IMG/VR virus record: IMGVR_UViG_3300013126_004901
Coordinates: 1-33,489 of that record
DNA length: 33,489 nucleotides
Direction: 5' to 3' (one strand)
Origin: a virus
The notes under the pieces are model-generated. The model saw only the letters and a list, made by a program, of their open reading frames with translations. It searched no databases and was not told the origin of the DNA. Shown piece after piece: positions 7,712 through 24,839 of this stretch. The position numbers and the translations under genes are program-made. How positions within the stretch are numbered: the stretch's first letter is position 1; the number at the start of each line of letters is the position of its first letter.

Positions 7712-8124
7712 GCATCCGCAGGATAAATGAGGAAATCGTCACTGGCAAACTTCTGCCAGTGATGTTTCCTTTTCCTCCAGCAGAGGTACCAGTAGATGAC
7801 GCCCTGCTCGTGACTGCTAGCGGGTCACACATCCTGTACGGCTCGCTTGTTTGGCTAGTTGATGAACGCAGCTGGGGAATTTTAGAATTCGATCAAACTA
7901 TTCTGGATGCCTTGCGCGGATATGCTTTCAGGAATGCAGGAATGCAGCGGTTAGAGTGCCTGCTAAGCCGATACGAAGATGGCAGTCTGAGAATAAATAT
8001 CGGAAGAATCTTGGAGCCAGCCATTGACATTATTGGTAAAGATGCTTATAATGAGATGCGAGGTCGGGCCGAACGCCTAAAAGATCGTTATCTAAAGTTT
8101 GATAAATATACCTTTGCGGTATAA
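7708..8124 (+). CDS. Unknown phage protein, 138 aa
   Basis: No family recognised. The N-terminal half is beta-rich and hydrophobic (GKLLPVMFPFPP, then ILYGSLVWLVDERSWGILEF), the C-terminal half helical with a basic end (RAERLKDRYLKFDKY). No signal peptide or clear membrane segment. The start overlaps the previous stop (ATGA), and groEL begins 10 bases after its stop, so it belongs to the tmk-groEL operon. A role as a chaperonin partner is possible only by position. Confidence 0.7.
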   Translation: MSIRRINEEIVTGKLLPVMFPFPPAEVPVDDALLVTASGSHILYGSLVWLVDERSWGILEFDQTILDALRGYAFRNAGMQRLECLLSRYEDGSLRINIGRILEPAIDIIGKDAYNEMRGRAERLKDRYLKFDKYTFAV

Positions 8125-21766: not shown

Positions 21767-22373
21767 TCAGTAGCGATAAATGCTAAAATCGCCAGAGCAG
21801 GGATTTCCCTTGCCATATATAAAGGCGCGCTCGGTAGGCAGGAACACAACTGAAAAAACTGTGTGCGATGAGTTGTCGCCGTGCCTACACAGCCCTCCTT
21901 TGCCGTGAGTTGCAAGCATTAGCATTATATCTTTTACTGATACATGTGCACCAGCGTCGCCTATTTCCTTGAAGGCGCGCTCCAGGCGATCACGGGACCC
22001 ATCCAAAGAAGCGCCCTTCCTGGCCTCCATCTCTGGCAAAAAAATAAAGTGATTTGTGTGTGCCGATGCGGCGCCATCATGGAAGACTTTTGCGGAATGC
22101 TTGGCGCTTGCTTCGAGGCTTACTACGTCGCCTTCCGTATTTGCAATGATGTTATTAAATGAGCTAGCACGCTGTTCGCACAATAGAATCTCTTCGGCCT
22201 CCCTGATGCTGCGTGACCACAAGGCCTCTACATATAGCAGCATGCGAGGTAAGCCAGGCCGGGTAGCGCTCAGCGAGCTCGGGGATCTTGTAGTTTTTAA
22301 GCGATGTCGCGATATGGTGCGACAACTTCTTGCCCACCTTCCGACCAGCAGCTCTAAGGTTTTTAAGTGACAT
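21767..22373 (-). pseudogene. Decayed peptidase C45 / acyltransferase-like gene
   Basis: Two minus-strand pieces in different frames form one broken gene. From 22373 the reading MSLKNLRAAGRKVGKKLSHH continues to PELAERYPAWLTS. About 22243 the frame must change to MLLYVEALWSRSIREAEEIL, which continues with NNIIANTEGDVVSLEAS, the hallmark HTNHF, and an end of the form VFSVVFLPTERAFIYGKGNP. In the family (acyl-CoA:6-APA acyltransferase-like Ntn hydrolases) the middle of the protein carries the nucleophile Cys (CTs) and an NxDW-type strand; both are absent, so about 100 or more central residues appear deleted as well as the frame lost. The start has no clear ribosome site. The gene is opposite in strand to both neighbours, suggesting a relic of acquired DNA. 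Family assignment rests on the C-terminal half only. Confidence 0.55.
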
Positions 22374-22435
22374 TTGTTTAAACAGCAATACAAGTAATAG
22401 CCCGGTTTGCGTGCCACAGGTCTGATGCATTTTCC

Positions 22436-22453
22436 TGCGGCATCAGTGCCGCA
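22436..22453 (+). promoter_or_regulatory. Perfect hairpin at the RNase HII start codon
   Basis: TGCGGCA (22436-22442), loop TCAG, TGCCGCA (22447-22453): a 7-bp perfect stem whose last base is the A of the ATG. No Shine-Dalgarno sequence is visible before this ATG, in contrast to nearly every other gene here. The hairpin might hide or present the start codon. Confidence 0.5.
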
Positions 22454-23064
22454 TGAGTAAACAAAAACCAACATTTGTCCTCGAGTCCTCGGCCTGGTCT
22501 GAGGATTTGCTTTTTGCTGGTTGCGACGAATCCGGTTATGGGTGCGCTAGCGCGAGCATGTGGGTTGCCGCAACAATCTGGCCAAAGAATAGCGCTACTC
22601 TGCCATCGATGGCAGGTATAAAAGACAGCAAGAAAACCACATCCGCTCAGCGAGAAGAACTAGTTAAGCTGATTAAAGACAGCTGTCAGTGGTTCTTGTG
22701 GGAAGTCACAGTCGACCAGATTAATTCGGGCAATCCTTATTGGCTTCGCTTCGAAGCCGCTGACGCAGGCCTGGCCGACCTACCTCCGCTTGTCACCTGC
22801 TTCGATGGCAATGTCTGCCTGAAGAATAATAAACATCGCAACACCTGCCAAGTAAAAGGAGATGCGATCAGCATCAGCATTGCCGCTGCATCTATTCTGG
22901 CCAAACATGCTAAAGATTTAGAATGTAAAGAACTGCATGAGAAATATCCGGATTACGGATTTAACAATCACAGCGGGTACTTAACAGAAGAGCACATTAA
23001 AGCACTAAAGACGTTTGGCCCAGCGCCCTGTCATCGCAACAAATATATTTCAGCTCATATATAA
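22453..23064 (+). CDS. rnhB: Ribonuclease HII
   Basis: Cleaves the RNA strand of RNA-DNA hybrids and single ribonucleotides in DNA, for primer removal or repair. The four acidic active-site residues are placed as expected: D25 and E26 (GCDESGYG), D118 (CFDGN) and D137 (KGDA in QVKGDAISISIAAASILAKH). DSKK (58-61) and YPDYGFNNHSGYLTEEH (165-181) confirm the family. In the usual DEAGRG signature the GRG is GYG here (29 is Tyr), a residue set that in known enzymes reads the ribonucleotide-DNA junction, so specificity may differ. Length of 203 aa is normal. The ATG has no obvious ribosome site and overlaps a hairpin. The gene ends 44 bases before the polymerase. Confidence 0.93.
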   Translation: MSKQKPTFVLESSAWSEDLLFAGCDESGYGCASASMWVAATIWPKNSATLPSMAGIKDSKKTTSAQREELVKLIKDSCQWFLWEVTVDQINSGNPYWLRFEAADAGLADLPPLVTCFDGNVCLKNNKHRNTCQVKGDAISISIAAASILAKHAKDLECKELHEKYPDYGFNNHSGYLTEEHIKALKTFGPAPCHRNKYISAHI

Positions 23065-23108
23065 GCCGCGCACTGTCTGGTAAAAATTAGAAAAATGATA
23101 GGATAGGT

Positions 23109-24839
23109 ATGAGCGCGCAATGGCTGCCAATACTGGCTAGTCCGAAGAACCCTAACAAGCACCTCGGCAAGAAGGGCACGATGTCCTTCTCTACTGAGTC
23201 ATTTGACAAGGTCGTCGCGTCAATCCAAACGGGTCTGCAACCATGGCCGCGGAGCATTCCGCGGTCTGTTTTTTTCTACGAGAATATCGCGAAGCTGTTC
23301 CCGCTATTCGGGCGAGGGGCTGCAGTTATCGGCACCGAATTTGCCACCCGCATACTGCTGGCCGCTAGCAAAGCTGCCACTACTGGTGCGGCGGTTAAGA
23401 TCCCCGCATCAGAAGTTTTTCTCTATGCTGCTGCCACGCTCGGCTTCAAGCAGATCGCCCGCAAGGACTACCTATCGGAAGGTGCGCGAGCAAAGCAATT
23501 CCTTATCCGCAGGAAGCGTGGCAGCAGTGCAGCCTGCATGCTCCGGGATGCCGTGAACAACATCGGCCTCGGCGGCATGGTTAGTGTTTCAATTTTTGCG
23601 AACGCCAATGGAACGCAAATAGTGCTACTGCCTACGGGGCAGAATCTCGTTGCACTCGCTGCGCTGCACGACGTGTACACGGCAGACGACACAACAGGTG
23701 ATGAGCAGCCGGTCGCTGCAAAGGCCACGAACCATGTGCAGCGCTACATGAACTCTCTCCCAGCAGAGCGACTACGATCAGCCGCAAATAAAAAGCGCAT
23801 TTTTCACAAGATTGACCGGGCATACGGTGGTAATCCGTACCGCGCCGTTCTGCGCGAAGCCGTTGCAGACGGGCTAGGCAACGGCTTCTTCTCCCATTAT
23901 CGTGATCCATCCGAGAACAGCCCCCGGGTTTTTGCAACTGGTCAAAGCTTGCAATTCATGCCGGGCTGGTTGCGTAATGAGCTGTTTCCTAGCTGGTTTG
24001 AAATTGACTTCTCAAATATGCACCTTAGCATCCTAAATGCGCAGGCTGGACTGGGACTAGACCTATCCCGATCCATTTGGGATCAAATTTTTGACGAGTG
24101 GCGCGTGAAGCTAGATCGCATATATGATCTGCAGGACCGCTCTGAAGCTGCTGACCAGCTGGATGCCTGCGGGCTCGCCTATCTCTTCAACGGCTCGCTT
24201 AACAGCGGTGACTCGCGTAGCTTACGCCTGCCTGAGAGGCGCATTGATCTGAGCAAGACCAAGAAGGCGCTGAAGGCCAGTCTCTACAGTCTGCAATTCG
24301 GCATGGAGGCCCCGGCTGCCCGGCGGGCATTTACCATGGACCTACTCAACCTTGGCCTAGAGGAAGTCGAAGTCACTGTACTCGGCAATCTGTGGTCAGA
24401 GACCTCCTTGTTGCGCACTATTTACGATGGCATGCGAGCGCACTGCGAGGCCGGAGCCCTAGACTCCAGTTCGCTGGCCATAAAGTGCCAGGCCGTTGAA
24501 ACTGATCTCGTTAAAAAAATCTATTCTATTGCAGGTCAGTACAGCCGCAAGCACTTGTGCATAACCGTCCACAGTCATGACGGGGTTTCGGTCTGGGCGC
24601 GGTCGCCGCGTATCGGGCGCCGCTTCTATCGGAAATGCCAGCGCGTAATGAGCGCAGAGCTTAGTCGGCTTGGCATCCAGTCCCGCCTAGAGGCAAAGGG
24701 GTTGGATCTGGCCGAAGAGATTCGCATTCCATCCGTCAGTCATTTTGCGGAAATCAAGATATCTGCCGATTATGGCGCGGCACTTGGGTGCTGCAAGACA
24801 ACGTACTCAACAGGTCCTCCCTGCTTAAAACAATCTTAG
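23109..24839 (+). CDS. Divergent family-A-like polymerase (TV-Pol type?)
   Basis: 576 aa with an unassigned N-terminal half (1-215) and a C-terminal half carrying all palm/fingers signatures of superfamily A polymerases. RVFATGQSLQFMPGWLR (273-289) matches the RLSSS...LQNIP...R segment. Motif A is EIDFSNMHLSIL (298-309, catalytic D300), motif B is KKALKASLYSLQFGM (385-399, K389, with Tyr at 393 where Pol I has F762 and Phe at 397 where it has Y766), and motif C is VHSHDGV (487-493, D491). H305 replaces the Glu that acts as sugar steric gate, and G492 replaces the Glu after the motif C Asp. No 3'-5' exonuclease domain. The layout recalls the TV-Pol family from mobile elements and phages. GGATAGG precedes the ATG. 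It stands next to RNase HII, so a replication or priming role is likely. Confidence 0.7.
   Translation: MSAQWLPILASPKNPNKHLGKKGTMSFSTESFDKVVASIQTGLQPWPRSIPRSVFFYENIAKLFPLFGRGAAVIGTEFATRILLAASKAATTGAAVKIPASEVFLYAAATLGFKQIARKDYLSEGARAKQFLIRRKRGSSAACMLRDAVNNIGLGGMVSVSIFANANGTQIVLLPTGQNLVALAALHDVYTADDTTGDEQPVAAKATNHVQRYMNSLPAERLRSAANKKRIFHKIDRAYGGNPYRAVLREAVADGLGNGFFSHYRDPSENSPRVFATGQSLQFMPGWLRNELFPSWFEIDFSNMHLSILNAQAGLGLDLSRSIWDQIFDEWRVKLDRIYDLQDRSEAADQLDACGLAYLFNGSLNSGDSRSLRLPERRIDLSKTKKALKASLYSLQFGMEAPAARRAFTMDLLNLGLEEVEVTVLGNLWSETSLLRTIYDGMRAHCEAGALDSSSLAIKCQAVETDLVKKIYSIAGQYSRKHLCITVHSHDGVSVWARSPRIGRRFYRKCQRVMSAELSRLGIQSRLEAKGLDLAEEIRIPSVSHFAEIKISADYGAALGCCKTTYSTGPPCLKQS

Follow-up and report, generated by a model that had tools for sequence, protein, structure and literature searches.

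The window analysed here, the whole of IMG/VR record IMGVR_UViG_3300013126_004901 (33,489 bp), is a fragment of a phage genome, and profile searches revealed jumbo-phage-like gene content in it, including genes for Lon, GroEL, thymidylate kinase and RNase HII. The carrier of the TV-Pol-like polymerase gene that concerns us is a jumbo-phage lineage. The polymerase ORF starts 44 bp after the end of the RNase HII gene, the close neighbour that an earlier note on this DNA had recognised; coordinates of both genes and of the polymerase motifs are given in Table 1.

Table 1 Features of the RNase HII and TV-Pol-like polymerase genes in the window
Feature	Position	Strand	Basis
RNase HII, 203 aa	22453..23064	+	Pfam RNase_HII E 1.2e-24; NCBIfam 7e-43; alignment with E. 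coli RnhB
TV-Pol-like polymerase, 576 aa	23109..24839	+	ORF; TV-Pol profile 22.5 bits; tree; core model
N-terminal region, residues 51-200, possible winged-helix DNA-binding fold (tentative)	23259..23708	+	Model blocks pLDDT 41-78; MarR-type winged-helix matches, Z ~5
R273...LQFMP...R289: hairpin Arg of the TV-Pol/family-A core and segment preceding motif A	23925..23975	+	Alignments
Motif A, residues 298-309 (D300-FSNM-H305), predicted catalytic D300, H305 at sugar-gate position	24000..24035	+	D300/H305 invariant in orthologues; His also in most sampled TV-Pols
Fast-changing insert, motif A to O-helix, longer than in other TV-Pols	24096..24248	+	31% identity, protein change ~1.0/site; gap in other TV-Pols
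O-helix (motif B), residues 385-399, K385xxxK389xxxY393xxxF397-G398	24261..24305	+	Invariant in orthologues; aligns with Pol I R754/K758/F762/Y766
Q461-A-V-E464, counterpart of the QGVE element in other TV-Pols	24489..24500	+	Alignments
Motif C, residues 487-493 (H490-D491-G492), predicted catalytic D491 then Gly	24567..24587	+	Alignments; strand-turn-strand in both models

Comparison with E. coli RnhB revealed that the catalytic carboxylates D25, E26, D118 and D137 are all kept in the window RNase HII and that the junction-sensing Tyr (Y176) is present. The GRG loop, which reportedly acts via backbone amides (PMC3025331), reads G28-Y29-G30 (22534-22542), with both Gly retained, and the gene looks intact. 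Variants of the same loop were found in other phage sequences: GYG in L036, GFG in L037 and GVG in the 636-kb phage LR756504 (L096). Just upstream of the RNase HII gene, the minus strand (21767-22474) encodes a protein whose domain is of the acyl-CoA:6-aminopenicillanate acyltransferase type (AAT, E 3.3e-9); other genes take the place of this AAT-type gene in the relatives of the window.

In the polymerase, R273, Q282, P285, R289, D300, H305, K385, K389, Y393, F397, G398, H490, D491 and G492 were verified letter by letter, which confirmed motifs A, B and C and the LQxxP segment at the residues where the earlier note had placed them. The same note had described a polymerase without an exonuclease domain, and searches of Pfam, PHROGs and NCBIfam indeed found no exonuclease, other nuclease or any other domain in the protein. 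The N-terminal region is perhaps a winged-helix DNA-binding fold, tentatively assigned from a weak model and weak matches.

Neither tblastn against phages and plasmids nor 8-mer and motif-pattern searches of IMG/VR matched the window polymerase, and the best phmmer hit in the PDB was an unrelated protein (E 2.2). A search of IMG/VR with the window RNase HII retrieved three records (L035, L036 and L037), each with a polymerase orthologue, and three further scans starting from the polymerase itself led to the same records. In the parts covered by both, L035 and L036 yield the same match values, and the set thus represents at most three independent genomes, the window included; one of the three relatives is a record of 371,675 bp. 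The order of RNase HII followed by polymerase and a spacing of 45 bp are common to all three records, whose proteins are 82-89% (RNase HII) and 49-52% (polymerase) identical to those of the window. Genes upstream of the pair are different in each of the three genomes, the two members of the pair staying side by side, and the pair sits in a tail-fibre/glycan region, outside the replication genes.

Every polymerase motif, H305 included, is invariant in the orthologues. Since synonymous change between the orthologues is mostly saturated, and protein change, 0.5 overall, falls to 0.2-0.3 per site within motifs and rises to ~1.0 in the variable insert and the tail, the aligned sequences indicate that the polymerase gene is under purifying selection. 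A random ORF was rejected, as orthologues, invariant motifs and the 22.5-bit TV-Pol score exceed chance, and a pseudogene reading of the ORF was rejected as well. The two genes have diverged discordantly: the window and the 371-kb relative are 89% identical in RNase HII and 49% in the polymerase, the genes have therefore not travelled as a single tight unit, and they may form no complex. At 22468-23167, which covers RNase HII and the first polymerase codons, the DNA is 83% identical to L036, with the remaining polymerase sequence diverged; RNase HII was therefore likely exchanged recently between phages, with a breakpoint in the 5' end of the polymerase gene. In L036 the intact RNase HII gene is preceded, 2 kb away on its upstream side, by a decayed 73-bp duplicate of its start that contains stop codons (7875-7944).

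Family placement was analysed with profiles and a tree. MAP_030 of Ma-LMM01 (506 aa, beside transposase genes) is the protein that, from its motifs, we take to be the TV-Pol named in 2008. Starting from MAP_030, plasmid and genome relatives were gathered as the TV-Pol set, and resolvase or recombinase genes lie close to some of these; Ma-LMM01 is a named TV-Pol carrier (PMC2579912). A TV-Pol profile built without the window protein scored it at 22.5 bits (best of 5000 shuffles, 4.0), and a TV-Pol core profile gave 19.5-20.2 bits for the three orthologues (19.8 for the window; best of 3000 shuffles, 7.6). These scores are significant yet far below those of the sampled TV-Pols among themselves (76-255 bits). 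None of the three orthologues was among the best hits of a Pol I core profile, all of which were shuffles. PF00476 had no match to the window protein at E up to 1, nor any in the relatives' records; with this result, and with H305 instead of Glu, a classical Pol I (family A) was rejected. In the tree, the branch that separates TV-Pol from Pol I (support 95/88) puts the query clade with the TV-Pols, outside the sampled ones (89/66) and on its own stem of 2.9 changes per column. Where the earlier note saw a divergent member of the family-A/T7-RNAP superfamily resembling TV-Pol, the sequence comparisons support this and identify the predicted polymerase as a new deep branch of TV-Pol, exonuclease-free, within that superfamily.

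Individual residues were then compared with those of TV-Pol and Pol I. D300 and D491 are invariant and align with the two catalytic palm aspartates of TV-Pol and Pol I, a correspondence that marks them as the putative catalytic pair. R273 corresponds to the TV-Pol beta-hairpin Arg, in a column that is invariant across the query clade and the compared TV-Pols. The fingers RxxxK of TV-Pol reads K385xxxK389: the second Lys aligns, and the first residue is Lys, not Arg, at a position that is also variable among the compared TV-Pols. Two helices (~228-239 and ~244-258) precede the hairpin in the core model (pLDDT 56-85), a possible counterpart of the bihelical coiled-coil thumb.

The earlier note had regarded the His at the position of the gate Glu and the Gly after the motif C Asp as departures from the standard; both residues are real, but they are not special, being the commonest states in the sampled TV-Pols. 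Reading motif A Asp+5 from alignments, with Ma-LMM01-like copies counted once, gave His in nine of the 16 distinct TV-Pol lineages, with Gln and Ala in two each and Val, Asn and Phe in one each; Glu occupies this position in all 12 compared Pol I-type proteins. Motif C is HDG in most sampled TV-Pols, and MAP_030 likewise has His at the gate and Gly after the motif C Asp. Because of these two distributions, H305 and the Gly are the usual state of the protein's own family. Tyr393, in agreement with the earlier reading, aligns at the Phe762 position; it is unusual compared with the sampled TV-Pols, most of which have Leu or a similar residue, and is constant in the query clade. Relaxed sugar choice through the His gate is possible yet unsupported, because a His (His760) has been proposed as the steric gate in E. 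coli Pol III alpha, a stringent discriminator (PMC8485763), and CcPol, with a Glu gate, makes primers from dNTPs only (PMC7581432).

Structure prediction, also suggested in the earlier note, yielded a core model (pLDDT 67, pTM 0.59) that is nearest to family-A polymerases. After realignment, its best PDB matches were Taq, T7, Pol theta and apicoplast polymerases, with Z of 8-9.6, just above the level that the tool calls common; residues 95-337 of the model lie on Taq 602-824, with the motif A and C regions in register. Foldseek alone gave nothing significant for the core model (best E 0.24 in the PDB and 0.029 among viral models). The full-length fold predicted from three sequences was poor (pLDDT 49) and was not used for the palm. 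A mixed alignment including Ma-LMM01-like proteins misaligned the fingers and was set aside.

Comparison with known systems revealed the closest likeness in the TV-Pol family (e.g., Ma-LMM01 MAP_030 and Polaromonas plasmid proteins; PMC2579912), which shares the R..LQ..R hairpin, the D....H motif A, the O-helix Lys, the Q..E element, the HDG motif C, the absence of an exonuclease and an extra N-terminal region. The window protein differs from that family in its own long branch, its insert between motif A and the O-helix and its Tyr at the Phe762 position, as well as in its pairing with RNase HII, where the common though not universal partner of TV-Pols is a D5 helicase or recombinase, and in its place in a jumbo-phage lineage that encodes a DnaE itself. 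The claim that TV-Pols are little studied biochemically largely held, except that CcPol-MP is characterised; CcPol is the one assayed TV-Pol that we found in the literature. CcPol of SCCmec (CcPol-MP, PMC7581432; PolA-SSB primases, PMC10061031) is alike in having a family-A core with two palm Asp on a mobile element or virus, but it keeps the Glu gate and the Phe762 equivalent (PMC7581432) and works with a small OB-fold partner; no such partner was seen near the window polymerase. divPolA1 and divPolA2 of Caudoviricetes (PMC11348598) are likewise second, divergent PolA-like enzymes beside another main polymerase, and divPolA2 further resembles the window protein in carrying an additional N-terminal domain and lacking an exonuclease (PMC11348598); however, the gate residue of divPolA2 is Glu, and the TV-Pol profile gives it no more than 3.5 bits. 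Pol I and phage family A (PF00476) share the superfamily and the motif order and provide the best superpositions of the core model (Taq, T7 and Pol theta), whereas the window protein lacks RLSSxxPNLQ, the Glu gate, HDE and the exonuclease.

In the analysis of the 371-kb relative, which was read through loci L038-L057, profile searches revealed DnaE, a DnaB-type helicase and a DnaG-like primase in two pieces, along with RecA-like and SbcC-like proteins, gyrase A and B, and terminase. Neither PolA nor PolB was detectable by these searches, an absence only as good as the searches themselves. Since DnaE, DnaB and DnaG are present and PolA is undetected in this relative, the phage type has a bacterial-style fork, with no Pol I of its own visible to the profiles used. 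The DnaG-like parts lie 26 kb apart (G640:172271-172414 and 198832-199503; L066, L065), and the second match holds one TAG, probably the gene end. The same genome encodes two trigger-factor-like proteins (L042:15346-16743 and L047:11353-12612), GroEL and Lon being encoded in the window, and at least six short paralogues starting MKLD.WEAISSLLxAGG and containing LHRDDGPA repeats are found near one end of the record (L038:484-5036).

Since searches of the relative turned up DnaE, DnaB and a split DnaG while PolA and PolB went undetected, the role that we consider most likely for this TV-Pol is that of a Pol I-like fill-in polymerase coupled to RNase HII, a reading held tentatively, at somewhat less than an even chance. 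RNase HII would nick phage DNA at ribonucleotides, either remnants of RNA primers at the ends of Okazaki fragments or stray rNMPs; TV-Pol would extend the free 3' end with dNTPs, replacing the excised stretch, and ligation would follow, as a phage counterpart of the work of bacterial Pol I. We infer that TV-Pol makes DNA, uses dNTPs and acts on RNase HII products; CcPol, a TV-Pol, extends both DNA and RNA primers with dNTPs (PMC7581432). The fill-in reading is weakened by the discordant divergence of the two genes, by their tail-fibre/glycan location and by the presence of host Pol I, which could take on this work. Also against it, the RNase HII-TV-Pol pairs are all from a single phage lineage, the other sampled TV-Pols, most of which lie on stretches of just 2.5-17 kb, showed no RNase HII nearby, and Iyer et al. 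report no nuclease linkage for TV-Pols (PMC2579912).

A role as a primase-polymerase that starts DNA chains de novo has been proposed for TV-Pols from gene context (PMC2579912), and CcPol-MP makes DNA primers (PMC7581432); the possible winged-helix domain at the N-terminus could hold the template. We regard this role as unlikely here, although likelier than the other alternatives, since the relative already has a two-piece DnaG-like primase and a DnaB-type helicase, and neither a D5 helicase nor an OB-fold partner was recognised among the scanned neighbours, which comprise part of the window ORFs. Nor was a recombinase, transposase, resolvase or integrase recognised in that set, and the gene is retained at the same place in diverged phages; both observations make it improbable that the protein replicates a mobile element residing in the phage and has no part in phage replication, as proposed for Ma-LMM01, even though transposases or resolvases adjoin TV-Pols in Ma-LMM01 and on plasmids.

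The neighbouring RNase HII, which removes rNMPs, and the His at the E710 position could together suggest that H305 relaxes sugar choice and that the polymerase makes RNA or mixed RNA/DNA for its partner to remove. This has a low probability, because His is usual in the sampled TV-Pols, where it shows no link with RNase HII, the stringent Pol III uses a His gate (PMC8485763), and Tyr393 in place of Pol I Phe762 offers a similar ring. Very unlikely is a write-and-erase pair, in which TV-Pol would lay ribonucleotide-containing primers or patches and RNase HII would remove them, so that maturation would not need host Pol I. An identity as a single-subunit RNA polymerase, either like those of T7 and mitochondria or of the kind suggested for divPolA2, would agree with the fingers region of the full-length model, whose first matches were mitochondrial and T7 RNA polymerase (Z 5-6.6); however, among the structure matches of the better core model RNA polymerases of this type rank below DNA polymerases, the sequence sides with TV-Pol in both core profile and tree, and divPolA2 has a Glu gate and a branch too long to place, which leaves this reading highly improbable.

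TV-Pols have been proposed to lie near the ancestor of Pol I and T7-like RNA polymerases (PMC2579912). What is new here is a TV-Pol inside a jumbo-phage lineage that has its own DnaE replisome, with RNase HII alongside, a pairing that contrasts with the absence of nuclease linkage for TV-Pols in the 2008 survey (PMC2579912). The His gate itself is not new, being the commonest residue in the sampled TV-Pols. The system offers a directly testable case of a TV-Pol standing in for Pol I, together with a family-A core with a His gate for studies of sugar selection.
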